From Thermincola ferriacetica (lineage in GTDB: Bacteria; Bacillota; Thermincolia; Thermincolales; Thermincolaceae): a DNA stretch of 64,000 bases. Of the stretch, positions 24,596 through 37,528 are shown in pieces. A model generated the notes under the pieces. The model did not search any database and was not told the DNA's origin. It saw only the letters and a list, made by a program, of their open reading frames with translations. The DNA lies in the NCBI RefSeq assembly GCF_001263415.1, contig NZ_LGTE01000001.1, positions 186,001 through 250,000 of the forward strand. The letters run 5' to 3'. Each line of letters opens with the position of its first letter. The stretch's first letter is position 1. The position numbers and the translations under genes are program-made.

Positions 24596-24800
24596 AGACG
24601 TATCTACGCTGAGTAGTAGACGCCCATGGACCGGGCCATCCAGCGTCTGGGGTTAACTTGGGCGCCAGGATGTAGCGCATTGAGGGGGAGTAAGACCTGC
24701 CTTCAGACAGGCGTCTCCCGATGAGGTGCTAAGGACTGTCCGGGCGGACCCGGCTGCTTTTAAGAAGCCGCCGGGCTTGTCCCGGCGGAGGTTCACTCTA
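24596..24800 (+). ncRNA. Right end of the IS605-type element, probable omega RNA scaffold
   Basis: The 200 bases after the TnpB remnant are GC-rich with several hairpins, for example AGCCGCCGGG/CCCGGCGG at about 24771-24788, as at the 3' end of IS200/IS605 elements where the TnpB guide RNA is made. The AT-rich sequence resumes at about 24795, only 13 bases before the riboswitch promoter. The exact end and the guide are not determinable by eye. Confidence 0.5.
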
Positions 24801-24807
24801 AATATTC

Positions 24808-24837
24808 TGGACAATGCGGACAATTTCATGCTATTAT
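24808..24837 (+). promoter_or_regulatory. Promoter of the corrinoid-capture operon
   Basis: TGGACA (24808-24813) and TATTAT (24832-24837) with an 18-base spacer. The 22-base block starting TTCTGGACAATGCGGAC is identical in the second leader at 36173, where the -10 is a perfect TATAAT. It is 20 bases upstream of the aptamer. Confidence 0.65.
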
Positions 24838-24858
24838 ATCATCAAACAGAATATTATG

Positions 24859-25017
24859 GAATAAGTGGTCCTTCTTGAAAGGACATAATAGGGAAGCCGG
24901 TGCAAATCCGGCGCGGTCCCGCCACTGTAAGAGGAAATCACTTTGCAATATGCCACTGGGTTTAACCTGGGAAGGCGTAAAGTGGTGATGATCTCGAGCC
25001 AGGAAACCTGCTTATTC
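24859..25017 (+). promoter_or_regulatory. Cobalamin riboswitch, copy 1
   Basis: All core features are present: GGGAAGCCGGTGCAAATCCG, then GCGCGGTCCCGCCACTGTAA, and the B12 box GAGCCAGGAAACCTGC near the 3' end. The closing stem pairs GAATAAG (24859-24865) with CTTATTC (25011-25017). It should bind adenosyl- or other cobalamins. The terminator at 25072 is the probable expression platform, giving repression when cobalamin is plentiful. Confidence 0.95.
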
Positions 25018-25071
25018 TGAACTCGCCGTAAGTACCCACGATGGATGGGAAGGGAGAGACTCAGGCTTTTT

Positions 25072-25108
25072 TGCCCTCTGCATCGTCGTGCGGAGGGCAT
25101 GTTGTTTT
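25072..25108 (+). terminator. Terminator of cobalamin riboswitch 1
   Basis: An 11-bp stem (25072-25082 with 25089-25099; TGCCCTCTGCA/TGCGGAGGGCA) is followed by TGTTGTTTTT. It sits between the riboswitch and the second conserved element. Confidence 0.8.
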
Positions 25109-25125
25109 TAAAAAGAAATATACAG

Positions 25126-25348
25126 GAATAGGTGTTTTACTCCGAGGGGTAAAACTTAAATGATTACGACCGTGTTGATTGCTTTAGACCGTGGAATGAA
25201 TGTAAATTCAGACAGATTTACTTACATTCATGATGACCCGGCCTTAAAGCAGACGGCCTATTCTAATACACCGCAGGCTGTAGGGAGGTGATTAGATTAG
25301 GCCGTTTTTATTATCACTTCCCTGGTCTGGATAGACCGGGGATTTTTT
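25126..25348 (+). promoter_or_regulatory. Unrecognised conserved structured RNA element, copy 1, with terminators
   Basis: GAATAGG (25126-25132) pairs with CCTATTC (25257-25263) to close a domain that contains the hairpin GTTTTACTC-CGAG-GGGTAAAAC, the conserved TTAAATGAT, a long variable hairpin (about 25194-25229) and the conserved CATGATGACCCGG (25229-25241). The 3' strand of the closing stem also lies in a terminator-like hairpin (25255-25272 with 25287-25303, then GTTTTT), so the two are mutually exclusive. GGGAGGTGAT (25283-25292) can alternatively pair with ATCACTTCCC (25313-25322). A final terminator occupies 25320-25341 plus TTTTTT. It is not a cobalamin aptamer; I cannot match it to a known class. 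Confidence 0.65.
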
Positions 25349-25386
25349 AAATTGTTCTTGAAATTTAGGGAAAGGGGCTGGGAAGA

Positions 25387-28300
25387 ATGGGAAAATATAA
25401 GTTAAAATTACGCCCGATTGCTCTGTGGGTAGCTATCTGTTTTCTTTTAAGCAATGTGATTACTATGAGCGTAATAAACCAGGCGGCAGCCGCGGAACAA
25501 ACGGCTCTCTATTCGGCCGGTGAGATGGCCGGTAAGGCCGTAAAATTCATTAACCACAAATATAAATCCGGAGAAAGAATTGACGGGTATACCGCCTATG
25601 TGCTGACTTTGGCCGGGGAGGACCTGGCAGGTGAAAAGTGGACCAATAACGGCAAGACATTAAAAAGTGAAATAGAAAACCTGGCCGACCAGTTGGGGGA
25701 CAGCAACAGTTTAATTTCATACATTATAGCCACTCAGAATACCGACGGCAGTTTTGGTCCTTATGCCAACGAGTACGGTACCAAAGTGCCCTTACAGGCT
25801 TTGGCAATGGTTAAAAATGACCTTACGGTCGGTACAGATGTCTATGGTCAGGTGCATGAGGCAATTGCCAAAGCCGTCAATTATTACAAGAACAAATACC
25901 GGAACGGAAATATGGCCTATAATGTTAACGGTTGGGATTTTGATTACCGGTGCGTGGAAGCGCTGGTCGCAGCCGGTGAGGACATTTCCACCGGTGAGTG
26001 GGTGTATAACGGGACCTCGCTTAAGGATGTCATAATAACGTCTGCCAACGCCGCTGCAGATAATGCTGCCGATTTGGATGCTGTACGCCTGGCCAAAGAA
26101 CTTATCGCTTTAAACGCTGTTGATCCCTATTCGGTACATATTGATACCCTGGCTGCTGCCATTAGAAGTAAAGCATCAACTGTTGCTGACCAAGTTTACT
26201 TTGGCAACAATATTTATGACCATGTAACTGTCTTGACGGCCCTGGGGAAGACCGGTAAACTTGCCGGAATTGACCAGGCCAAAGCCCTTGAGTACCTTAA
26301 TAATTTCAAACATGCTCACAGCAATAGTTGGGGCAGCCCGGCCGGGACGGCCTGGGGCGGATTTTCTCCCGAGGAAGCCGACCTGACGGCGCAGGTTATC
26401 ACCGCCCTCATCTATTTTGACGGGGCTGACACGCCGGATAGTCCTGTTTACAGTGCCATTCAGGACGGCTTGACCTATCTTATGGACATCCAGGATGCCG
26501 ATACGGCAGCCATACCCTCCCAGTGGGACAATACCTTTTCCACCGCCGAGACTTTAATTGCCTTAAAATCTCTTGGAAAAACGTACAATGACTATGCCGG
26601 TAATGATTCCCTTTGGATTAAAAAGTCCCGGACCAAAACCATCGCCCAGTGTTTACTGGCCGTAAATATGTGGAAAGATTCAGCCCGCCGGGACCGGCTG
26701 GCCAACCTCCTGATTAACAGGCAAAGGGCGGAAGAACCCGGTAAAGGTTCCTTTGATAACAGCGTTTACAGCGATATGTGGGCCTATATCGCCCTGGGCG
26801 AAGCGGGTAAGATCAACAGCGGAAGTTTTCATACCGAAAATGCCAAAGCATATATTTTATCCAAACAGAGCGTGGAGCAAGATGTTTACGGATCCTGGGG
26901 AGAGAAGTTCGGGGATACATACTATCCTGATGTTTTGTCCACCGCCCAGGCCATCCGGGCGCTCACTTACCTGCCTGACGCCGCGGTGGATGCCGGGATT
27001 CAGGCGGCTGTTGACAGGGGTGTTGCTTATCTGAAAGGGCTCCAGCAAGACGATGGCGGTGTTTACGTGTCGCCATGGGATGACCCTGCCGTGGATAACT
27101 CTGAACTTATTATAACCCTGCGCCAGCTCGGTAAAGACCCTGAAAGTACGGAGTGGACCAGGAACGTTGACGGCAAAAGGGTTAATCCGGTCGCATATCT
27201 GATGACGAAAACCATGAACGAAGACGGCAGTTTTGGGACATCGAGAAATGTTTTTGGAGCTGCCGAGGCCCTTTATGCATATGTTCTCCAGAGTGCTGCC
27301 GGTACAGAGGCCAGTGGCAGCAATAACAACAGCGCCAACAACAACAGCAGCAGTAGCAATAGCAATAGCAATCCGTCTGTTCCGTCTTCTCCAAATGAAT
27401 ACAGTGTCAGTATTGCGGTGGTTGGTAAAAACGGTGAACGTCTCTATGGCCCAGGCAGTGTCACGGTGAGCAAAAACGGCGAGTGGGGCCTGACGGCTCT
27501 GGGCGCTCTTCATGCCACCGGACTCAGCTATACAGAGGACAAGGGTTTTGTCAAAAGTATTGCCGGTCAGGCCAACAGCGGAGTGAACGGGTGGATGTAC
27601 AGTGTCAATAATTCAGTACCCAGCGTGCTGGCCTGCGATAAAACCGTCAATGAAGGTGATCGTATCATCTGGTGGTACAGTACTGAGATGAACTCCAACG
27701 GTCCTTCCTGGGATAGCCTGTTTAAGAGTTCAACAACAGGACAGCCCCAGAATACTTCATTTGCAACACAGATTTCCGGTGAAGTTGGGACAGCGCTGGA
27801 TAAACTGGCTGAAACGCTGGGGCTAAAAGGGGATACCGGAGAGTTAGGGCCCCTGAGTGAATCAGCCAAAGCCGTAGTTGTGGTGAACAGCGACAAACCC
27901 ATAAGCCTGGCCGAAATAATTGCCCTGAAAAAGAGACTGGCGCAAAATACGGTGGAACTGTCCAAGAAAGCAGAGGCCAATCAAGGAACTACCATAACCG
28001 ATACATTAGGCGAGGTGGGGATGAGTGTTCCGGCCAAAGCGCTTGACCGTGATACGGAAATAACTGTTAAAGAGATTACCATACCAGGCGCTGGCGGAAT
28101 CAACGGTGCAGAGGCGCGTACTCCCGCAGGTTACCGGCCGGTATCGTCTGTTTATCAATTCGGACCCGATGGGACCAGTTTTAAGGTTCCGGCGACATTG
28201 GTTCTGAAAGTGGCAATCCCGCGCCTTACCAAACCGGAGAACCTGGCCCTGGCCTGGTACGACAAGGTTAACGGCGCATGGGTCGCTATCCCCGCGGTAG

Positions 28301-28917
28301 TGGATGCGGCAAACGGGCTGGTTGTGGCGAAAATTCGCCATTTTTCCGATTATGCCGTATTTGCCAAAGAGACAAAAAGGTCTTTTGCCGATGTAACTTC
28401 CACTTCTTATGACTGGGCGCGCCACAGTATTGAAACACTGGCGGGGGCCGGGATAGTCAATGGAGTTGATAAAGTCCGTTTTGCGCCGGCCCGCCCAATT
28501 ACCAGGGCAGAATTGGTCAGCCTGCTGGTCAAAGCGCTGGCTCTGCCGAAAAAAACGGAGGATAAAGCGGTCTTTAACGATGTACCGGCCGGCGCCTGGT
28601 ATGCTCAGGACATAGCCGCGGCTGTCCGGGCCGGGCTGATTAAGGGATTTGGCGACGGTACCTGCCGTCCGGACCGTCCTGTTACGCGCGAGGAACTGGC
28701 TGCCATTTTAGCGCAGGCGCTTAACCTGCAGACTTCTGGGAAGGAGTTACATTTCAACGACCAACGGGATATTTCGTCCTGGGCCAAAACAGGTGTGGCT
28801 GCTGCGGCGGCGCACGGCCTGGTAAAAGGTTTCCCCAACGGGGCATTCAGGCCTGCTGCTCCGGCGAGCAGGGCGGAATGCGCGGTAATGATTTATCGTA
28901 TGCTTGAATCGGTGTAG
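25387..28917 (+). CDS. SLH-anchored surface protein with alpha-toroid and DUF4430 (transcobalamin-like) domains
   Basis: This 1176-residue secreted protein has a signal peptide (about residues 1-35). Residues 40-635 form repeats of the prenyltransferase/terpenoid-cyclase alpha-alpha toroid type (QNTDGSFGPYANEYGT, QQDDGGVYVSPWDD, NEDGSFGTSRNVFGAAEALY). An Asn/Ser linker (638-669) leads to a DUF4430 domain (about 670-765, ending WMYSVN...DRIIWWYST). A beta-rich ZU5-like segment (875-995) and three SLH domains (998-1176) for cell-wall anchoring follow. A helical toroid plus a DUF4430-like beta domain is the plan of animal intrinsic factor and transcobalamin. With the cobalamin riboswitch upstream, corrinoid capture at the surface is the best inference. 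Confidence 0.85.
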   Translation: MGKYKLKLRPIALWVAICFLLSNVITMSVINQAAAAEQTALYSAGEMAGKAVKFINHKYKSGERIDGYTAYVLTLAGEDLAGEKWTNNGKTLKSEIENLADQLGDSNSLISYIIATQNTDGSFGPYANEYGTKVPLQALAMVKNDLTVGTDVYGQVHEAIAKAVNYYKNKYRNGNMAYNVNGWDFDYRCVEALVAAGEDISTGEWVYNGTSLKDVIITSANAAADNAADLDAVRLAKELIALNAVDPYSVHIDTLAAAIRSKASTVADQVYFGNNIYDHVTVLTALGKTGKLAGIDQAKALEYLNNFKHAHSNSWGSPAGTAWGGFSPEEADLTAQVITALIYFDGADTPDSPVYSAIQDGLTYLMDIQDADTAAIPSQWDNTFSTAETLIALKSLGKTYNDYAGNDSLWIKKSRTKTIAQCLLAVNMWKDSARRDRLANLLINRQRAEEPGKGSFDNSVYSDMWAYIALGEAGKINSGSFHTENAKAYILSKQSVEQDVYGSWGEKFGDTYYPDVLSTAQAIRALTYLPDAAVDAGIQAAVDRGVAYLKGLQQDDGGVYVSPWDDPAVDNSELIITLRQLGKDPESTEWTRNVDGKRVNPVAYLMTKTMNEDGSFGTSRNVFGAAEALYAYVLQSAAGTEASGSNNNSANNNSSSSNSNSNPSVPSSPNEYSVSIAVVGKNGERLYGPGSVTVSKNGEWGLTALGALHATGLSYTEDKGFVKSIAGQANSGVNGWMYSVNNSVPSVLACDKTVNEGDRIIWWYSTEMNSNGPSWDSLFKSSTTGQPQNTSFATQISGEVGTALDKLAETLGLKGDTGELGPLSESAKAVVVVNSDKPISLAEIIALKKRLAQNTVELSKKAEANQGTTITDTLGEVGMSVPAKALDRDTEITVKEITIPGAGGINGAEARTPAGYRPVSSVYQFGPDGTSFKVPATLVLKVAIPRLTKPENLALAWYDKVNGAWVAIPAVVDAANGLVVAKIRHFSDYAVFAKETKRSFADVTSTSYDWARHSIETLAGAGIVNGVDKVRFAPARPITRAELVSLLVKALALPKKTEDKAVFNDVPAGAWYAQDIAAAVRAGLIKGFGDGTCRPDRPVTREELAAILAQALNLQTSGKELHFNDQRDISSWAKTGVAAAAAHGLVKGFPNGAFRPAAPASRAECAVMIYRMLESV

Positions 28918-28938
28918 GGGTTATGTGAATGCGGAAAA

Positions 28939-28964
28939 TCTCGTTTACTCCTGGGTAAACGAGA
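28939..28964 (+). other. Intercistronic hairpin
   Basis: TCTCGTTTAC pairs with GTAAACGAGA over 10 bp with a 6-base loop, between the large surface-protein gene and the next gene. There is no T-run, so it is more likely an mRNA-stability or differential-expression stem than a terminator. Confidence 0.5.
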
Positions 28965-29001
28965 GTAGAGAGCAGAATCAACTTCTCAGGAGGGGTAGAC
29001 G

Positions 29002-30243
29002 GTGAAAAGTAGAGGGCTTTATTTACTGGGAATCCTGGTTATTTTACTGGGGTTGTTGGGGCCGATTGTTTATTCCGGTAGGCTTACCGGGCGGCAGGGG
29101 CCGTCAGATCCTGGGCAAGCTTTATCCGGCGGTATTAAAGACGGCAGCGCTTCATGTGATGCCGGCGGTGCCCGCAACGCCAGGATTATGCCCTATGATA
29201 CCGGTTCGGGCGTTGTTAATGTTGATTCCGGTGATGTAAATGTTGGTTCCGGCGTTAAAAAAGCCGGGACAAAAAATACTGCCGGTTCGGCTGCGGAAAA
29301 AGGGCAGGTAACTGGCGCCGACTTGTCGGGCAAATTAACTATAAAGAAAGTACCGGAGAGTAATCCGCCGAAAAACGAGGCAGGCGTTCAACTATGGGTG
29401 ACGGAGGATTTCGGCCGCCGTTCAATGTATGCGGAAACGGTCGGTTTCCGCCCCGGGGATGCGGTGCTGGACATCTTAAACCAAAATCTGAACATAGAAA
29501 CAGCCAATGGGGGAACTTTTGTTAAATCCATCAACGGTGTGGCTTCCGGCTATACAGGTAAATCGGGCGGCAAGCGCACGAAAAAGGACTGGTTTTATTG
29601 GGTGAACGGGGTTATGGCTTCTGTCGGCGCCGACCAGTATATCCCTGGCCCGGGAGATGTCATCTGGTGGGATTACCATGATTGGAGCGGGACCATGTTT
29701 ATTCCGGCAGTGATTGGGGCATACCCGGAGCCGTTTCTGCGCGGTTACAGCGGGAAAAACAAGGGGGCAGTAATCTTCTATGCCGACGGTTATGAAGACC
29801 AGGCGCAAAAAATAAAACGCGGACTGGAAAAATTTAGGGTAACGCCGGTAAGCGTGGCGCCTTTTAATGGGGAAGGAATCTCAAAAAGAAACGGACCGGC
29901 TATGGTGGTGGGTCCCTGGACTGTTCTAAAGCAGAGCGAAATACTGAACGGAATGAACGAAAGGGGTATAAAAAGCGGCCTATATGTTAATTTTTCAGAT
30001 GATCGGTTTAACCTGCTGACACCTTCCGGTCAAATTGCCGGAGCCTGCGGGAAGGGCAGCGGCGCAATTGTGGCGGTTGGTGTAGGTAGCGGAGACGCAG
30101 GCGTGTTATGGTTGGTAACAGGGGTTGACCGCCAGGGTCTGGAAAATGCCGTGACTGTTTTGAGTGAACGCCCACAGGAAATAAAGTATTGCTTTGGCGC
30201 CGCCGTTGATTCGGGGAAGGTAATTCCTTTACCCATACAATAA
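29002..30243 (+). CDS. Membrane-anchored DUF4430 protein, probable corrinoid-binding
   Basis: A 413-residue protein starting at GTG 29002 behind AGGAGGGG. Residues 5-24 are one hydrophobic segment that serves as signal or anchor. A Gly/Val/Asp-rich linker runs to about residue 105, then a DUF4430 domain (about 115-232) with VLDILNQNLNIETANG and DWFYWVNGVMASVGADQY, both typical of the transcobalamin-like C-terminal fold. The last 170 residues are a separate alpha/beta domain that I do not recognise (NKGAVIFYADGYEDQAQKIK). Gene order suggests that it receives ligand from the large surface protein. Confidence 0.8.
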   Translation: MKSRGLYLLGILVILLGLLGPIVYSGRLTGRQGPSDPGQALSGGIKDGSASCDAGGARNARIMPYDTGSGVVNVDSGDVNVGSGVKKAGTKNTAGSAAEKGQVTGADLSGKLTIKKVPESNPPKNEAGVQLWVTEDFGRRSMYAETVGFRPGDAVLDILNQNLNIETANGGTFVKSINGVASGYTGKSGGKRTKKDWFYWVNGVMASVGADQYIPGPGDVIWWDYHDWSGTMFIPAVIGAYPEPFLRGYSGKNKGAVIFYADGYEDQAQKIKRGLEKFRVTPVSVAPFNGEGISKRNGPAMVVGPWTVLKQSEILNGMNERGIKSGLYVNFSDDRFNLLTPSGQIAGACGKGSGAIVAVGVGSGDAGVLWLVTGVDRQGLENAVTVLSERPQEIKYCFGAAVDSGKVIPLPIQ

Positions 30244-30265
30244 AATCCAAAGGAGGTCAAAGGGT

Positions 30266-31630
30266 ATGAAAAAGAAGTGGTTCTGTATGGCGCTGGTCTT
30301 GATTCTGCTGGCCGGCATTTTGTCTCCCATGGCAGCATATGCTGAGCCTGCTGCAGATAAAGGCCCAATTAAAACGGCAATGGATAAGGCCGCTGATTGG
30401 TTATGGCAAAAAGAGAAAAAAGAGGGCGGCCTATTGCCATGGAGTTATATTGCTTTGGCTGCGGCGGGGAGGGATTTGGGGAATACATCCGTGGGCCTGG
30501 CATGTGAAAAATTGTTTGCGAATCTTAAAGCAGGAGAGACAAACGATTACAGTACCCTTGTTTTAACCCTGTTTGCCGCAGGCCAGGACCCTTATAACTA
30601 CAAAGGGCAAAACTTGGTGCAGAAACTCCGGGATGCCCGGCTCCCGAGCGGCAAGTATGCCGATAATGTGATTAACGGGGGAGAAGACCTGGTTAATGCC
30701 CATATATGGGCTGTCTTGGCTTTACACACGGCCGGCGCGAGCAGTAAAGAACAAGCAAAAGCGCTGCAGTGGCTGGTTAATCAACAACATGCCGACGGGT
30801 CTTTTTATTGGGATGCAGCCGACAGGGATACTGCCGATGTGGATTCAACCGGCATGGCTCTAATGGCTCTGGGCGCGCTGGGCGAAAAAAAGGACAGCCC
30901 GGTGATGCAAAAAGCCGTGGCTTACTTGAGAAGTGCGCAAAAAGATAGCGGCGGGTTCAATTCCTGGGGTACGGAAAACCCTGAGTCATGTAGCGTGGTT
31001 ATCCAGGGATTGACTGCAGTCGGAGTTGACCCCACCGGACAGGAATGGTTGAAGTCCGGCGGAAACCCGGTAACCGCCCTCTTGAGTTTTCAACTGCCTG
31101 ATGGTTCTTTTAGTCATCTAAAAGGCGGCGTCGCCAGTGAAATGGCTACCCAGCAGGCTTTAATGGCATTGGCAGACGTTTATTATGGGGATACCTTGTT
31201 TAACAGGCTCCGCTCACAGCCTTCCGCTGCCTTGCCGGAGCGGACCGTACGCTTTGAAGCCGGCAAAAAACAATATGTTGTTACTATTGGCGGGCAGCCG
31301 CAGAAGCATGAAACCGATGCCGCGCCTTTTACTCAAAACGGCCGCATTTATGTACCGGTGCGCTATCTGGCTTATGCCCTGGGGATACCTGAGAGTGGGG
31401 TTAACTGGGACAGTAAGTCCCGTACTATTACATTATCACTGAACGGCGCCTGCGTTAGGCTGGCCGTTGGCAGCCTTCTAATTTACACAAACAATGCCCC
31501 GCGTCAGATGGATGTGGCGCCGGTGCTGCGCCATGGCCGTACTTACCTTCCTGCCCGCTATGTAGCGGAGTCCTTTGGGTTCCGGGTAGACTGGGACCAG
31601 GCAGCCCAGGCCGTAATCATAACAAAATAA
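30266..31630 (+). CDS. Secreted alpha-toroid protein with copper amine oxidase N-terminal-type stalk domain
   Basis: The 454-residue protein has a signal peptide cleaved after about AAYAEP (residue 28). Residues 35-315 contain prenyltransferase/squalene-cyclase-like repeats (NQQHADGSFYWDAADRDTAD, QKDSGGFNSWGTENPESCSV, QLPDGSFSHLKGG), related to the toroid of the 1176-residue protein. The C-terminal part (about 325-454) is a CuAO_N1/stalk domain with two repeats, each with RxYVPVRYLAYALG or RTYLPARYVAESFG. These domains attach proteins to the cell surface. It keeps the toroid half of the two-domain plan while the preceding gene keeps the DUF4430 half. Confidence 0.8.
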   Translation: MKKKWFCMALVLILLAGILSPMAAYAEPAADKGPIKTAMDKAADWLWQKEKKEGGLLPWSYIALAAAGRDLGNTSVGLACEKLFANLKAGETNDYSTLVLTLFAAGQDPYNYKGQNLVQKLRDARLPSGKYADNVINGGEDLVNAHIWAVLALHTAGASSKEQAKALQWLVNQQHADGSFYWDAADRDTADVDSTGMALMALGALGEKKDSPVMQKAVAYLRSAQKDSGGFNSWGTENPESCSVVIQGLTAVGVDPTGQEWLKSGGNPVTALLSFQLPDGSFSHLKGGVASEMATQQALMALADVYYGDTLFNRLRSQPSAALPERTVRFEAGKKQYVVTIGGQPQKHETDAAPFTQNGRIYVPVRYLAYALGIPESGVNWDSKSRTITLSLNGACVRLAVGSLLIYTNNAPRQMDVAPVLRHGRTYLPARYVAESFGFRVDWDQAAQAVIITK

Positions 31631-31673
31631 GTAAGGTATTTACGATTAAAATTTTAGCAGAGGTGGTTAATCC

Positions 31674-32603
31674 GTGTTTGACCAGTTGTTTTACCGGGAA
31701 AAAGGGCTTTTTTTGCAGAGTTTGCATTCGGTGGCCGCGCTAACTTATATAGCAGTATTATTTCTCCTGGCCTTTGTCTTTTCACACCCTTTCTACCTGG
31801 CTGGGCTCCTTCTCGTTACTGCGCTGGCCATTTGGGCTGCCGATGGATTAGAAGCATGGGAATCCTATTTAAAAGTTAGTTTGGGTATGATCGTCTTGAT
31901 TATTATTGTCAATCCTCTTATGGTCCATGCCGGGGAAACCGTCCTTTGGTACGGCCCCAGGATTCCTGTTCTGGGGCGTTTGGTAATAACGCTGGAAGCC
32001 ATCTGCTACGGGGCGGCGATGAGCGTGCGGCTGTTGGCTGTGATAAGCGTTTTCTGCCTATATAATCTCATTATGCATCCCGATAAAACATTACAATTAT
32101 TTTCCCGCCTTGCTCATAAGTCCGGTTTGATTATATCCCTGGCTACCAGAATGTTTCCTGCTATGGTCAGAGATGTAAATAGTATCAGTGAAGTACAGCG
32201 GATGCGGGGAGTAGATTTTGCTTCGGGGAATTTGAAGGAAAAGATAAAAAAATACGCGTCCTTGCTCAATATCTTGCTCTTATCTTCTCTAGAGGGTTCT
32301 TTACAAATCGCGGAGGCCATGCAGGCAAGGGCTTTCGGCAGCGGGCCCCGTTCCAGCTACCGGCGGGAATTGTTCCGGCCGCGGGATTTGCTTTGCCTGT
32401 CAGGATGTGGTTTAGCGTTAACTTCCGGGCTATACGGTTTCTTCAAAGGTTATGGCACATATGAATATTATCCGCAACTGGGATATCTGATTGACGGAAG
32501 TATGAACTTGTTAGTTTTGGCCGTCTTGTTGATAGGTTTACTTGTTCCGGTTGCGTTAAGCTGGGGGTGGAAACATTGCCGCTATTTGAAATCAAAAATC
32601 TGA
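31674..32603 (+). CDS. ECF transporter T component (EcfT/CbiQ family)
   Basis: The 309-residue membrane protein has five to six hydrophobic segments and the cytoplasmic coupling helices with EVQRMRGVDFAS and MQARAFGSG (the two Ala-Arg-Gly-type motifs that contact the ATPases). It starts at GTG 31674 behind GAGGTGG. It would join the S component at 34287 to the double ATPase in a group I or dedicated ECF transporter. It overlaps the ATPase gene by 37 bases. Confidence 0.88.
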   Translation: MFDQLFYREKGLFLQSLHSVAALTYIAVLFLLAFVFSHPFYLAGLLLVTALAIWAADGLEAWESYLKVSLGMIVLIIIVNPLMVHAGETVLWYGPRIPVLGRLVITLEAICYGAAMSVRLLAVISVFCLYNLIMHPDKTLQLFSRLAHKSGLIISLATRMFPAMVRDVNSISEVQRMRGVDFASGNLKEKIKKYASLLNILLLSSLEGSLQIAEAMQARAFGSGPRSSYRRELFRPRDLLCLSGCGLALTSGLYGFFKGYGTYEYYPQLGYLIDGSMNLLVLAVLLIGLLVPVALSWGWKHCRYLKSKI

Positions 32604-34294
32604 TTTACTATTACCCTGACATTGAAAAGCCGGCTCTAAACAACATTAACCTGATTATTGAAGAAGGAGAGTTCCTGCTTGTAGCTGGCGGTTCAGGCTC
32701 GGGCAAGTCTTCCCTGGCGCGGGCGCTGGCCGGATTAATACCTGATTTTTACGGCGGAAAATTCGGGGGCAAGGTTTTGTTTCAAGGTAGGAACTTGCGT
32801 GAAATAGACCGGCGTAGTTTGGCCAGGGAAGTCGGTATTGTTTTTCAGGACCCCGAGAAACAGTTGGTAATGACCAGTGTGGAAGCTGAAATAGCTTTTG
32901 GTCTGGAAAATCTATCGCTGCCGCAGGATGAAATGTTCCGCCGGGTAGCCGAAGTGATGAGTTTTCTTGATTTATCGGCAGTGAAAGATGAGTTTACCGG
33001 CAATCTGTCGGGGGGTCAAAAACAGAGACTGGCTCTGGCTTCTGTCCTGGCTATGCAGCCGAAGGTACTAATCTTGGATGAGCCCACCTCACAGTTGGAT
33101 CCGGTTGCTGCCGAGGAACTGCTTAATTTAGTTAAACGGTTAAATGAAGAAATGGGGTTAACGATTATTTTAATCGAACAACGCCTGGAAAGGTGTTTTC
33201 ACGTGGCTGACCGGTTGATAATTATGGAATGCGGGGAAATATTAAAGGGCGGCCCGGCGGACGAGGTGGCCCGGTGGGAAGTAGAGAAATCCATTCCTTT
33301 TATCCCGCCGGTGGCAAAATTTTTTGCTTCTCTCGGCGCTTCCACCATACCGCTTACTGTTAAAGAGGGACGTAAGGCGTTAAAACCGTATTATTCAATG
33401 CCGGGGGCCCGGGCCAACCGGACAGCGTCTGCGCCCTTACCAAATAAGAGAGACTTAAAGGTTAGAAGCAAACCGGGACAAGAAAACAGAGAAAATACCA
33501 TGGTTGAACTGAAAAATGTCTGGTTTACCTATCCGGGTGGCCGGGAGGCGCTGCGCAACGTCAACTGCCGCATTGAACAAAAGGAATTTGTAGTTATTCT
33601 GGGAGAGAATGCAGCCGGAAAATCTACTTTACTTAAACATGTGGCAGGATTGCTGAAACCGGGGCGCGGCAGCGTGTCGGTAATGGGCAGGGAGACCGGA
33701 AAAACACCGTTAGCGGAGTTGGCCCGGTATGTGGGCTACCTATCCCAAAACCCAAACGACTACCTGTTTCAGGATACAGTGGAGGAAGAACTGCTGTTTA
33801 CTCTCAAGAATTTTGGGCTGTCAGATTTTGGGCGTATCGAGAATCTTTTAGATAAACTGAATTTATCTCACTATCGTACCGCCAACCCGAGGGATTTGAG
33901 CAGCGGTGAACGGCAGCGGGTTGCCCTGGCGGCAGTATTGGCATCGCGGCCGCTACTGCTCTTGCTGGATGAGCCTACCCGCGGCATTGACTATCGCCTG
34001 AAAAATGAATTGGGTGATTTGCTCTCGGAACTCAGGGAAGAAGGGATTACAATAATTATGGTTACGCATGATATCGAGTTTGCGGCGGAATACGCCGATC
34101 GCGTGATTTTGATGTTCGATGGCCGGGTAGTCAATACAGGGTCAAAACGCGAAGTTTTGGGAGGCTCGGTTTTTTATTCGCCCCAAATGAGCAGGCTGTT
34201 CAGAGGGACTGTTGACGGCATCCTCACAGTGGCCGAGGCTATTGAGGAAATGCGGGAATTGCAGGGCATGGTGCGGGATGGTACTCATGCGTGA
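32567..34294 (+). CDS. ECF transporter double ATPase (fused A components)
   Basis: A 575-residue protein with two CbiO/EcfA-type ABC domains. Domain 1: GGSGSGKSSLARAL, LSGGQKQRLALAS, VLILDEPTSQLDPV. Domain 2 (from about residue 311): GENAAGKST, LSSGERQRVALAA, LLLLDEPTRGID; the signature is LSSGE instead of LSGGQ. A basic linker joins them. It starts at GTG 32567 inside the T-component gene. It supplies energy for the corrinoid ECF transporter. Confidence 0.9.
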   Translation: METLPLFEIKNLIYYYPDIEKPALNNINLIIEEGEFLLVAGGSGSGKSSLARALAGLIPDFYGGKFGGKVLFQGRNLREIDRRSLAREVGIVFQDPEKQLVMTSVEAEIAFGLENLSLPQDEMFRRVAEVMSFLDLSAVKDEFTGNLSGGQKQRLALASVLAMQPKVLILDEPTSQLDPVAAEELLNLVKRLNEEMGLTIILIEQRLERCFHVADRLIIMECGEILKGGPADEVARWEVEKSIPFIPPVAKFFASLGASTIPLTVKEGRKALKPYYSMPGARANRTASAPLPNKRDLKVRSKPGQENRENTMVELKNVWFTYPGGREALRNVNCRIEQKEFVVILGENAAGKSTLLKHVAGLLKPGRGSVSVMGRETGKTPLAELARYVGYLSQNPNDYLFQDTVEEELLFTLKNFGLSDFGRIENLLDKLNLSHYRTANPRDLSSGERQRVALAAVLASRPLLLLLDEPTRGIDYRLKNELGDLLSELREEGITIIMVTHDIEFAAEYADRVILMFDGRVVNTGSKREVLGGSVFYSPQMSRLFRGTVDGILTVAEAIEEMRELQGMVRDGTHA

Positions 34295-35036
34295 AAGTGG
34301 GTTGAGATGGCGCTTCCCTTTATTTCTGTCAGTAGTGGCGGTGTTATTGATACTGAGTATACGGGGCGACAATTCTGTCTCCGGGCAGAATTGGGGCTTA
34401 TTATCCGCTGAAATTGTAGCTGCGGCATTGGCGTTTTTATACTGGGACTTTGAAAAAAGTACTGCTTCATCCCGTGAAATAGCGGATATTGCCGTACTCG
34501 GCGCCATAGCCGCAGTGGGAAGGGTGCCTTTTGCGGTGCTGCCCAATGTTCAGCCGACTACGTTTATAGTTATAATCTCTGGTTTTGTGTTTGGGCCGCG
34601 GGCAGGGTTTATGACCGGCTCAACCGCCGCGATTGTGGCTAACCTTTTTCTGGGCCAGGGGCCGTGGACGCCGTGGCAGATGTTTGCATGGGGTCTGGCC
34701 GGAGCTACCGCGGGTGTGCTCAAGAGTTTCTATCCCCGTATAGGCCGCCGGGCCATGGTAATCTTTCATATTGCCTGGGGTTATTTGTTTGGTTGGATCA
34801 TGAATCTGTGGTTCTGGACGGCCTTTATTTACCCGCTGAACTGGCAGTCATTTTTGGCCGCTTATGCCGCCAGTTTCTGGTTTGACACCTTCCATGCCTT
34901 GGGGAATGCCGTCTTTTATTTGCTTTTTGGGGCCGGTTTTACCAGGATTTTAACCCGTTTCCGCAGAAAGCTGGAGGCGAGTTATTTGCCTGAGACTCCG
35001 GCTCAACAAAAAAACAAGGCGCAAGGTGATATGTGA
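34287..35036 (+). CDS. ECF transporter S component, probable cobalamin/corrinoid-specific (CbrT-like)
   Basis: A 249-residue membrane protein. The ATG at 34287 overlaps the ATPase stop (ATGCGTGA). Conserved stretches GRVPFAVLPNVQPTTFIVII and GFMTGSTAAIVANLFLGQGP are those of the S-component family that includes cobalamin-specific CbrT/CblT. The last residues are hydrophilic. Location between the ECF energising genes and cbiZ, under a cobalamin riboswitch, supports uptake of cobalamin or cobinamide. Confidence 0.83.
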   Translation: MRESGLRWRFPLFLSVVAVLLILSIRGDNSVSGQNWGLLSAEIVAAALAFLYWDFEKSTASSREIADIAVLGAIAAVGRVPFAVLPNVQPTTFIVIISGFVFGPRAGFMTGSTAAIVANLFLGQGPWTPWQMFAWGLAGATAGVLKSFYPRIGRRAMVIFHIAWGYLFGWIMNLWFWTAFIYPLNWQSFLAAYAASFWFDTFHALGNAVFYLLFGAGFTRILTRFRRKLEASYLPETPAQQKNKAQGDM

Positions 35037-36121
35037 TGCTAATTTATGAAACGAAAAGCGGGGAAAAAGTATACCGGATGGATAATACGATAATTGTTTT
35101 TTTCCCCGGCCCGCGCCTGGTTATAAGTACGTCCAGGATTAACGGCGGTATTCGGGAAGATCTTGAGGCAGTGTTTAATCACTGCCTGCCTCCGGAAAAG
35201 TGTCTTGTGAAAAATCTGCCCAATGGTAGCGCAGAACAGTATTTGGAACAATTGGCCGCTAAACTGCATTTACCCCCCAAACGTACCGCTGGTCTATTGA
35301 CTGCTGCCAGAATGGAAAATATAGCCATAAAGGCAGCGGGTTTTCAACAGTTAGAGGTTACAGCCCTGGTAACTGCCGGAGTGGATGTTAACGGGGGCCG
35401 GGCCGGCGACCCGGCGGCCTACCACGAGGCGGACGGGCAGTATACTGTCCTGGGCGGGACCATAAATATTATACTTATCATAAATGGCAACCTGTCGCCT
35501 TATACTTTGGTGCGAACTGTTGTGACGGCTACTGAAGCGAAAACAGCCGCTTTACAGGAACTCATGGCGCCCAGCCGTTACTCCCGGGGTATTGCCACCG
35601 GTTCCGGCACTGACCAGATTATTGTGGTATCTAATCCATCAAGCCTATACAGGTATACAGATGCCGGAAAACACTCAAAATTAGGAGAGTTAATCGGGTC
35701 AGCCGTTAAAGATGCTGTCAAGGAAGCCTTGTATAAGGAGACCGGCCTCGGGCCGGAACGCCAGCGGAATTTCCTGGCGCGTTGGGCGAGATACGGGATT
35801 AAGGATGAGGATTTCTGGCAGGAAGCTCGGCGGGATGGGGCCATTCTGAGCCGGGAAATGTTCATCGAAAGACTAAACCGGTTGGCTGGGGAAGAACGGT
35901 TAGTAACTTTGGCTGCGGCTTTGATACATCTGCTGGACGAGTATACATGGGGATTGTTGTCTGCCGGGTTGGTAATGGAAATTGGAGAAAAGCTTATTCA
36001 ATCGTTCGCCGGGAAAGTCTCGACCTGTAATAGGGTACATGATCCCCCTGACTATTTGAGCCGGTTGTTTATCGAATTGACGATAAAACTGTTGGATAGC
36101 AGTGCTGAGTTTAATTGTTAA
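35033..36121 (+). CDS. cbiZ: Adenosylcobinamide amidohydrolase CbiZ
   Basis: CbiZ hydrolyses the amide bond that links the nucleotide loop aminopropanol to the corrin ring, giving adenosylcobyric acid, so foreign corrinoids can be rebuilt with the cell's own lower ligand. The signature LVTAGVDVNGGRAGDPAAY is near residue 122, with GTINIILIINGNL and RTVVTATEAKTAALQEL following. The chain (362 residues) is longer than archaeal CbiZ by a C-terminal helical region from about residue 235. GTG 35033 and ATG 35036 are both possible starts; both overlap the S-component stop. It is the last gene of the operon. Confidence 0.9.
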   Translation: MMLIYETKSGEKVYRMDNTIIVFFPGPRLVISTSRINGGIREDLEAVFNHCLPPEKCLVKNLPNGSAEQYLEQLAAKLHLPPKRTAGLLTAARMENIAIKAAGFQQLEVTALVTAGVDVNGGRAGDPAAYHEADGQYTVLGGTINIILIINGNLSPYTLVRTVVTATEAKTAALQELMAPSRYSRGIATGSGTDQIIVVSNPSSLYRYTDAGKHSKLGELIGSAVKDAVKEALYKETGLGPERQRNFLARWARYGIKDEDFWQEARRDGAILSREMFIERLNRLAGEERLVTLAAALIHLLDEYTWGLLSAGLVMEIGEKLIQSFAGKVSTCNRVHDPPDYLSRLFIELTIKLLDSSAEFNC

Positions 36122-36172
36122 GAACTGATTGAATCAGCATGATGACAGGTAACACGTTCGGAATACGAAAAG

Positions 36173-36205
36173 TTCTGGACAATGCGGACAATTTTATGTT
36201 ATAAT
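36173..36205 (+). promoter_or_regulatory. Promoter of the cobalt transport operon
   Basis: TGGACA (36176-36181) and a perfect TATAAT (36200-36205), spacer 18. The upstream block TTCTGGACAATGCGGACAAT is identical to the promoter of the corrinoid-capture operon at 24805. Confidence 0.75.
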
Positions 36206-36226
36206 AACCTCAAACAGAATATTGTG

Positions 36227-36387
36227 GAATAAGTGGTCCTTATTAGAAGGACATAATAGGGAAGCCGGTTAGAATCCGGCGCGGTCCCGCCACTGTAGGA
36301 GGAAATCGTTCTGCATTATGCCACTGGGCGGTAGCCTGGGAAGGCGCAGAAACGGTGATGATCTCGAGCCAGGAAACCTGCTTATTC
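36227..36387 (+). promoter_or_regulatory. Cobalamin riboswitch, copy 2
   Basis: Nearly identical to copy 1: closing stem GAATAAG/CTTATTC (36227-36233, 36381-36387), GGGAAGCCGGTTAGAATCCG, GCGCGGTCCCGCCACTGTAG and the B12 box GAGCCAGGAAACCTGC. Differences lie mainly in the variable peripheral stem. It should reduce cobalt import and cobK expression when cobalamin is sufficient. Confidence 0.95.
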
Positions 36388-36431
36388 TGAACTCACCGGT
36401 AGTACCCACGATGGATGGGGAGGTTGAGAGT

Positions 36432-36484
36432 GCGAGCTGAGCTTGCTTTTTAACTCCTGTCCTGTAGTGGCAGGAGTTTTTTGA
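36432..36484 (+). terminator. Terminators of cobalamin riboswitch 2
   Basis: A short stem GCGAGC/GCTTGC (36432-36446) with TTTTTAA is followed by a stronger stem AACTCCTGTC (36452-36461) / GGCAGGAGTT (36469-36478) with a run of T. The second resembles the single terminator of copy 1 in position, not in sequence. Confidence 0.75.
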
Positions 36485-36504
36485 TGTAACAATTTAATAA
36501 TTCA

Positions 36505-36708
36505 AATAGGTGTTTTATCCCGAGGGATAAAACTTAAATGATAATAACTTTTTACATGGACGGGGAATGGAATTAAAATATACTTAATTTCATGATGACC
36601 CGGACTTGTAAAAGCGGCCTATTCTAGTTCACCGCGTCATTTCCGGGAGGTGGTTAGATTAGGCTTTGTTTAAAACGCTTTTCTCCCTGGCTGACGACCA
36701 GGGTTTTT
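36505..36708 (+). promoter_or_regulatory. Unrecognised conserved structured RNA element, copy 2, with terminators
   Basis: AATAGG (36505-36510) pairs with CCTATT (36618-36623). Inside are GTTTTATCC-CGAG-GGATAAAAC (compensatory changes relative to copy 1, same CGAG loop), TTAAATGAT, a hairpin ATGGAATTAA/TTAATTTCAT of different sequence, and CATGATGACCCGG (36591-36603) unchanged. A terminator-like hairpin uses 36616-36633 and 36649-36664, again overlapping the closing stem. The final terminator is CCCTGG/CCAGGG (36685-36703) with TTTTT. Confidence 0.65.
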
Positions 36709-36781
36709 CTTTGAAACTGAAAAAACATTTTGAATTGGTTAAAACTTATAAAGCATAATCTGAAAATGAGGAGTGATTTCT

Positions 36782-37528
36782 GTGAATCGTTACACGACAC
36801 TCATATTAACGGGTTTATTTGCCTTAATTCTGTTCAGTGTGCCGGAATATGCTTATGCCATGCATATCATGGAAGGTTTTTTACCGGCTAAATGGTCCAT
36901 ATTCTGGTCAGTTCTGACGATACCTTTCCTGGTTAGGGGGCTTCGGACGATAAAAAAGAAGGTTGAAGATAACCCATCCTTGAAATTATTATTAGGTGTG
37001 GCTGGCGCATTTGCCTTTATACTTTCTGCCTTGAAAATGCCTTCCGTTACCGGGAGCAGTTCCCATCCAACTGGAGTGGGCCTGGGAGCGATACTTTTTG
37101 GGCCTACGGCAATGACCGTGATCGGCGTGATTGTTTTGCTGTTCCAGGCTATATTGCTGGCTCACGGCGGAATTACGACCCTTGGGGCAAATACTTTTTC
37201 CATGGCAGTGGCAGGTCCCTTCGTGGCCTACTGGATATTTAAATTGGGTAAAAAAATAGGCCTGCCCACCTGGCTGTCCGTTTTTCTTGCGGCTTTTGCC
37301 GGTGACCTGATTACATATGTGGTTACTTCAGTGCAGTTAGCAGCCGCTTTTCCTGCTGCCCAGGGTGGTGTAGCAACTTCCGTTGTAAAGTTTTTGAGCG
37401 TCTTTGCTGTAACTCAGTTACCGCTGGCTGTTAGTGAAGGAATTTTAACGGTGATTGTGTTTAACTTTTTGAAATCATATAATCAGCAGGAACTGAAAGA
37501 GTTGTCGGTAATAGGAGAGGAGGTATAA
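36782..37528 (+). CDS. cbiM: Cobalt ECF transporter component CbiM
   Basis: The precursor has a cleavable signal ending at AYA, leaving the mature N terminus MHIMEGFLP whose histidine and terminal amine bind Co(II). [17 protein letters not shown] and [15 protein letters not shown] are CbiM landmarks. I take GTG 36782 (248 residues) as the start because TGAGGAG lies 8 bases upstream; the GTG at 36773 overlaps that site. It is the substrate-specific membrane component of the cobalt transporter encoded by the next three genes. Confidence 0.93.

Follow-up and report, generated by a model that had tools for sequence, protein, structure and literature searches.

Two operon leaders within the 64,000 nucleotides of the Thermincola ferriacetica genome analysed here (the window) carry a cobalamin riboswitch, and in both a second structured RNA stands between that riboswitch and the first gene. 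What is this second RNA, and what could it contribute to a leader that already has a complete switch? A preliminary description had reported two copies of an unknown element, and both are indeed present where it had placed them and share fixed blocks. The order is the same in both leaders: a complete Rfam cobalamin riboswitch, which that description had overlooked, its own terminator, the element (hereafter derived element) and a cobalt or corrinoid uptake operon.

24846..25029, forward strand: canonical cobalamin riboswitch, copy-1 leader (RF00174, 140.2 bits)
25072..25099, forward strand: intrinsic terminator of the first riboswitch, copy-1 leader
25125..25265, forward strand: derived element, copy 1 (covariance model R1, 149.4 bits)
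25387..28917, forward strand: first gene of the copy-1 operon, SLH + DUF4430 + alpha/alpha-toroid surface protein
36214..36399, forward strand: canonical cobalamin riboswitch aptamer, first switch in the copy-2 leader (RF00174, 130.1 bits)
36452..36478, forward strand: intrinsic terminator of the first riboswitch, copy-2 leader
36503..36626, forward strand: derived element, copy 2, aptamer-like domain with P1 as its closing stem (full-length match to covariance model R1, 121 bits)
36773..37528, forward strand: cbiM, first gene of the cbiMNQO-cobK operon (PF01891, E=4.5e-58)

The copy-2 region (36505-36708) sits between the riboswitch at 36214-36399 and cbiM at 36773, the copy-1 region (25125-25350) between the riboswitch at 24846-25029 and the surface-protein gene at 25387; with terminator hairpin T1 included, the copies span 36503-36665 and 25125-25303, respectively. 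Across the 3.18-Mb genome the block CATGATGACCCGG is confined to copies 1 and 2. Neither at the gathering score nor at E<=10 does the derived element of either window copy match any Rfam family, RF00174 included. The promoter regions of the two leaders (TTCTGGACAATGCGGACAATTT; 24800-24870 and 36168-36240) are nearly identical, suggesting, as far as such similarity goes, that the whole leader was duplicated.

The fold was worked out by hand first and afterwards by RNAalifold and single-sequence folding. It comprises a closing stem P1 (GAATAGG/CCTATTC), a P2 hairpin with CGAG loop, the single-stranded CUUAAAUG and a long arm in which an internal loop, GAAUG / CAUGAUGA, lies beneath an apical stem. 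For copy 2 the parts are as follows.

36505..36510, forward strand: 5' strand of P1
36512..36533, forward strand: P2 hairpin, L2 = CGAG (36521-36524)
36533..36539, forward strand: J2/3 block CTTAAAT, its first base doubling as the last base of P2
36548..36614, forward strand: long arm from the single-sequence fold, internal loop GAATG / CATGATGA plus apical stem (helix 3 of the covariation test)
36618..36624, forward strand: 3' strand of P1, also within the 5' arm of T1

P1 pairs AATAGG (36505-36510) with CCTATT (36618-36623) in copy 2, and GAATAGG (25126-25132) with CCTATTC (25257-25263) in copy 1. P2 reads GTTTTACTC-CGAG-GGGTAAAAC in copy 1 (25134-25155) and GTTTTATCC-CGAG-GGATAAAAC in copy 2 (36512-36533); the compensatory changes with conserved loop that had been claimed for it consist of one C-G to U-A double change and one G.U to G-C change. 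The long hairpin had been called entirely different in sequence yet still pairing. It does pair in both copies and the lower stems differ strongly, TTGCTTTA/TAAAGCA in copy 1 versus CTTTTTACA/TGTAAAAG in copy 2, but the apical stems, GAATGTAA/TTACATTC and GGAATTAA/TTAATTTC, are related. A small ORF or leader peptide was rejected upon inspection of the first sequences read only, in which ATGATGACC comes without a ribosome-binding site or common frame.

Two copies alone are thin evidence for selection on RNA structure, as the preliminary description had inferred it. Covariance model R1, built from five copies, gave full-length matches in five of the ten genomes of the order and in 20 of the 398 of the phylum; a second model, R2, added further elements, including those in 12 of the 22 genomes in the class of genome G021. 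The largest genus in that class is most likely Moorella, since a DNA pattern spanning element and T1 matches Moorella contigs; a first exact DNA pattern gave no match in this search, the second mainly Moorella matches. Canonical cobalamin riboswitches among the raw matches of both models were left out, by which a working set was obtained of 46 elements from 28 genomes and 12 families of one phylum, Moorella included. Also excluded were a match of 22.7 bits from the order that sits within an apparent coding region (L020) and one of 29.6 bits that lacks both an RF00174 riboswitch in its vicinity and the matching blocks (L037). A further candidate, first read as another copy (L022, G001 C50 74096), is itself an RF00174 riboswitch; its locus (74086-74546) holds two successive cobalamin riboswitches, one full at 124.6 bits and one at 31.3 bits, just under the Rfam cut-off.

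In 24 aligned elements 93.1% of the cells of three helices are paired, compared with 78.9 +/- 1.0% in shuffles and 33-53% with slid partners, and 18 of the 26 pairs show double-sided changes; none of 500 shuffles attains any observed measure. Covariation of P1 is weak (one pair with double changes, five one-sided), which is expected if its 3' strand also serves T1 and is under two constraints, but which remains a weakness. With families weighted equally, conservation is 1.00/0.88/1.00 for G-A-G of L2, 0.97/0.91/1.00/0.92/0.77 for UUAAA and 0.86/0.97/0.91 for the apical ACU; L2 is less conserved (0.73/0.64/0.73) in eleven canonical riboswitches included in the alignment. Freely varying blocks or stems that fail to pair in homologues, which would have refuted structural selection, are not what we find: stems change while L2 (N)GAG, J2/3 UUAAA, the apical A...ACU and the AUGA loop are fixed. 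Covariation across 12 families thus supports the selection on structure. That two copies in one genome could merely reflect recent leader duplication leaves room for chance similarity or an unstructured repeat, but 46 elements in 12 families, at the same position and with strong covariation, contradict this explanation so plainly that we regard it as next to impossible.

The preliminary description had also stated that closing stem and terminator arm overlap, and this proves correct in both copies: the 3' strand of P1 falls within the 5' arm of T1.

25255..25303, forward strand: hairpin T1, copy 1, GGCCTATTCTAATACACC...GGTGATTAGATTAGGCC-GTTTTT
25282..25292, forward strand: AGGGAGGTGAT in the 3' arm of T1, copy 1, proposed T2 antiterminator, complementary to 25313-25323 (ATCACTTCCCT)
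25319..25342, forward strand: terminator T2, copy 1
36616..36665, forward strand: hairpin T1, copy 2, GGCCTATTCTAGTTCACC / GGTGGTTAGATTAGGCT with T-rich tail TTTGTTT, mutually exclusive with P1
36685..36703, forward strand: terminator T2, copy 2

Closing stem and terminator exclude each other through their common strand, and the alternative folds are near balance. The 3' arm of T1 could be located in 45 of the 46 elements, the exception (G127b) having this arm interrupted by inserted repeat-like DNA, and in 34 of the 46 T1 is directly followed by four or more U in a row. A simple two-state energy estimate favours T1 over the P1 state in 40 of 45 cases, by a median of 4 kcal/mol, a gap that in such a model is within reach of ligand binding. 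Covariation of T1 is modest on a MAFFT alignment (six pairs with double changes, 11 of 500 shuffles, 76% paired); on so simple an alignment the signal suffers because Moorella and the other sequences are out of register. At locus L039 (G127 C10 66995-67129) repeat-like copies (GTGTTCGAAAAGGAGCACGAGAG...) lie on both sides and T1 is destroyed, so that the element there may be disabled.

Some leaders, for instance the Moorella surface-protein and btuF leaders, G127a and G093, have T1 only, while others, both window copies included, have the further terminator T2. In copy 1 the 3' arm of T1 can form an 11-bp duplex with the 5' side of T2 (-18.8 kcal/mol, z -4.0). This complementarity is also strong in the G131 and Moorella cobK leaders; it is not clear in copy 2 (z -0.9) and is non-significant by a sequence-shuffle test in about half of the cases, copy 2 among them. 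Since the 3' strand of P1 is part of the T1 arm, closed P1 should prevent termination, and we infer that both layouts, with and without T2, act as ON switches. There are no termination data, and the sign remains an inference because double covariation of P1 is scant and that of T1 modest. P1 is transcribed ahead of T1, so P1 could also be the default, with the ligand acting in the opposite direction.

As to the origin of the element, a cobalamin riboswitch lies upstream of all 46 (Rfam; L5 motif upstream in 46/46). Two homologues score above the RF00174 cut-off themselves, at 59 bits (L027) and 32.7 bits (L025), and the element-built models R1 and R2 can be aligned over their full length to canonical riboswitches (L042, L062, L065, L070 and others), the framework of P1, P2 and J2/3 being retained. 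The parts that are absent belong to the receptor. The L5 loop (GCGGUCCCGCCACUG) is found in none of the 46 elements versus 46/46 upstream riboswitches, J6/3 in none versus 45/46, and the B12 box (AGCCAGGAGACCUGC) in none versus 34/46; P4 (CCGGUGAAAAUCCGG, up to 4 mismatches) is retained in nine of the 46 elements and absent in the others. Judged by these alignments we are dealing with a descendant of a tandem cobalamin riboswitch that has diverged and lacks the B12-binding core. "Unknown element" was right, then, in so far as Rfam has no match for it, but its identity has to be corrected to such a descendant. No published description of it was found in the literature searched, the scope of which did not include most subscription papers. 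Tandem arrangements of other kinds were also seen: a three-part leader in which a canonical riboswitch and two derived elements precede a predicted transporter (L007 / L019, G001 C50 26840-27459), and a derived element flanked upstream and downstream by canonical cobalamin riboswitches (L031, G066 C45).

This clear descent raises the possibility that the element still senses corrinoids, e.g. incomplete ones such as cobinamide, with a remodelled pocket and as a second B12-type control point. An activating, cobinamide-responsive corrinoid riboswitch exists at cobT of A. halodurans (PMC10653944), and the copy-1 operon encodes CbiZ, an adenosylcobinamide amidohydrolase. However, L5 and J6/3 are missing in 46/46 elements, and in known cobalamin riboswitches the L5-L13 kissing loop is the device that couples binding to expression (PMC10653944, PMC9600662), so that without L5 the element should not act as a normal B12 riboswitch, binding itself being a matter of inference. 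No P13/L13-like hairpin that could serve as kissing partner was noticed 3' of the element in those leaders that were read, which was not done systematically, and a simple second B12 OFF switch would have no need of an ON layout. We hold a persisting corrinoid sensor to be improbable, and the least probable of the sensing alternatives.

The associated genes are a narrow set. First genes 3' of the elements are cbiM, cobK, genes for BtuF-type binding proteins (Peripla_BP_2) and for SLH/toroid surface proteins, with a few unclassifiable; the DUF2162 predicted transporter is the first gene behind the double element. All eight cobK leaders examined are followed by cobK and then cbiM and cbiQ/cbiO-type genes, recognised by sequence rather than by HMM. 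The copy-1 operon (25387-36121) encodes the SLH + DUF4430 + alpha/alpha-toroid protein, a DUF4430 protein, a toroid protein, CbiQ, a double ABC ATPase, an ECF S component and CbiZ, and looks like a transcobalamin-style corrinoid capture system. Only two of the eight cobalamin riboswitches of this genome carry the element, both in the window, at the cbiMNQO-cobK and the corrinoid-capture operons; none was found downstream of the other six, whose genes, where they can be named from sequence, are cbiD/E/T, cobT, cobU/cobQ and a permease plus ThiC-like, at least one remaining unidentified. Since in this genome the element occurs only at uptake operons and the identified biosynthetic operons lack it, a second input appears to gate uptake and not biosynthesis.

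With most of the associated operons encoding cbiMNQO cobalt transporters, a direct sensor of Co2+ or Ni2+ that opposes or permits cobalt uptake has to be considered. Yet the element also stands at corrinoid-capture and BtuF operons, and a cobalt ON switch on cobalt uptake would be positive feedback, so a metal sensor would have to act as OFF; Rfam matches neither the NiCo riboswitch, which was rejected on this ground, nor another metal-sensing class. Direct metal sensing thus seems unlikely to us, if marginally less so than a corrinoid sensor. Somewhat more weight, though still well short of likely, is given to a ligand-free relic, i.e. a second tandem copy that lost its receptor and remains as a fixed attenuator or spacer setting basal read-through of uptake operons: the receptor core is missing in all 46, its loss looks graded (nine elements retain P4, the rest do not) and no obvious compact ligand pocket is visible. 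A mere relic would nevertheless hardly keep L2 GAG, UUAAA, the apical A...ACU and AUGA nearly invariant over 12 families while its stems change freely, nor be kept selectively at uptake operons or twice in succession in one G001 leader.

We therefore consider it probable that the derived element is a cis-acting transcription-attenuation RNA, a tandem cobalamin riboswitch descendant that works as an ON switch. Under plentiful B12 the first riboswitch would halt transcription. An RNA polymerase passing it would transcribe the second element; as long as the fold closed by P1 holds, CCTATTC would be unavailable and T1 blocked, so that transcription goes on, and where T2 exists the 3' arm of T1, now free, could capture the 5' arm of T2 and keep that terminator from forming as well. 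Opening of P1 would allow T1 to form, with a stop at T1 and/or T2. Given the ON-switch layout each leader would compute "NOT B12 AND X". Of this reading, computation shows the conserved structure, the descent, the lack of L5 and J6/3, the mutual exclusion of P1 and T1 and the association with uptake genes, whereas the ON direction, the sensing of a small molecule or ion and its identity are inferred. The likeliest meaning of X is that uptake of cobalt or corrinoids is needed; one example would be a cobalt-free corrin precursor, accumulating when cobalt is short. A cobalt-shortage signal is a guess, made by analogy with the TPP + HMP-PP tandem and without ligand or binding data. The full proposal is possible but we advance it only tentatively: a new riboswitch class from tandem cobalamin riboswitch duplication, switched in ligand and regulatory sign to become ON for a cobalt-shortage signal (e.g. 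sirohydrochlorin/precorrin-2), combined with the B12 input within a single leader and gating cobalt and corrinoid uptake.

Compared with known systems, the derived element resembles RF00174 in P1, the P2 hairpin, J2/3 UUAAA, the P7-type internal loop (UGAUGA), P4 in 9/46, and in genes and leaders; it differs in that L5 and J6/3 (B12 box) are lacking in 46/46, in that the window copies are below Rfam detection and in that its terminator uses the P1 strand itself. In ON riboswitches of the adenine pbuE type strand exchange sets the aptamer's closing stem, P1, against the terminator. This competition is alike, while fold and ligand are unrelated. In the TPP + HMP-PP tandem the end-product OFF switch always comes first, with its own terminator, and a pathway precursor switches the second RNA ON (PMC6478431, eLife 2019). 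Both tandems place an OFF switch ahead of a second RNA that has a terminator to itself, a layout that reads as a NOT A AND B gate; however, the HMP-PP aptamer lies within the terminator whereas here P1 competes with T1, and here the second element descends from the class of the first switch and its ligand is unknown. The cobT riboswitch of A. halodurans is likewise a corrinoid-type ON switch with mutually exclusive antiterminator and terminator (mBio 2023, PMC10653944), but its antiterminator is P13, held by the L5-L13 kissing loop, in contrast to P1 as proposed antiterminator in an element without L5 (46/46).

A review of tandem riboswitches remarks that a NiCo/AdoCbl tandem might be expected, yet is not seen (PMC9481103); the leaders described here add a probable AdoCbl-first tandem gate ahead of cobalt genes. 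The narrow gene association, cobalt and corrinoid uptake, makes the element an orphan-riboswitch candidate whose ligand can be sought among few compounds. If our reading is right, one of the oldest known riboswitches yielded a descendant without its ligand site that now serves as second logic input in the same leader, and a path from riboswitch to riboswitch would be visible, from the canonical form via loss of L5 with P4 kept to loss of P4.
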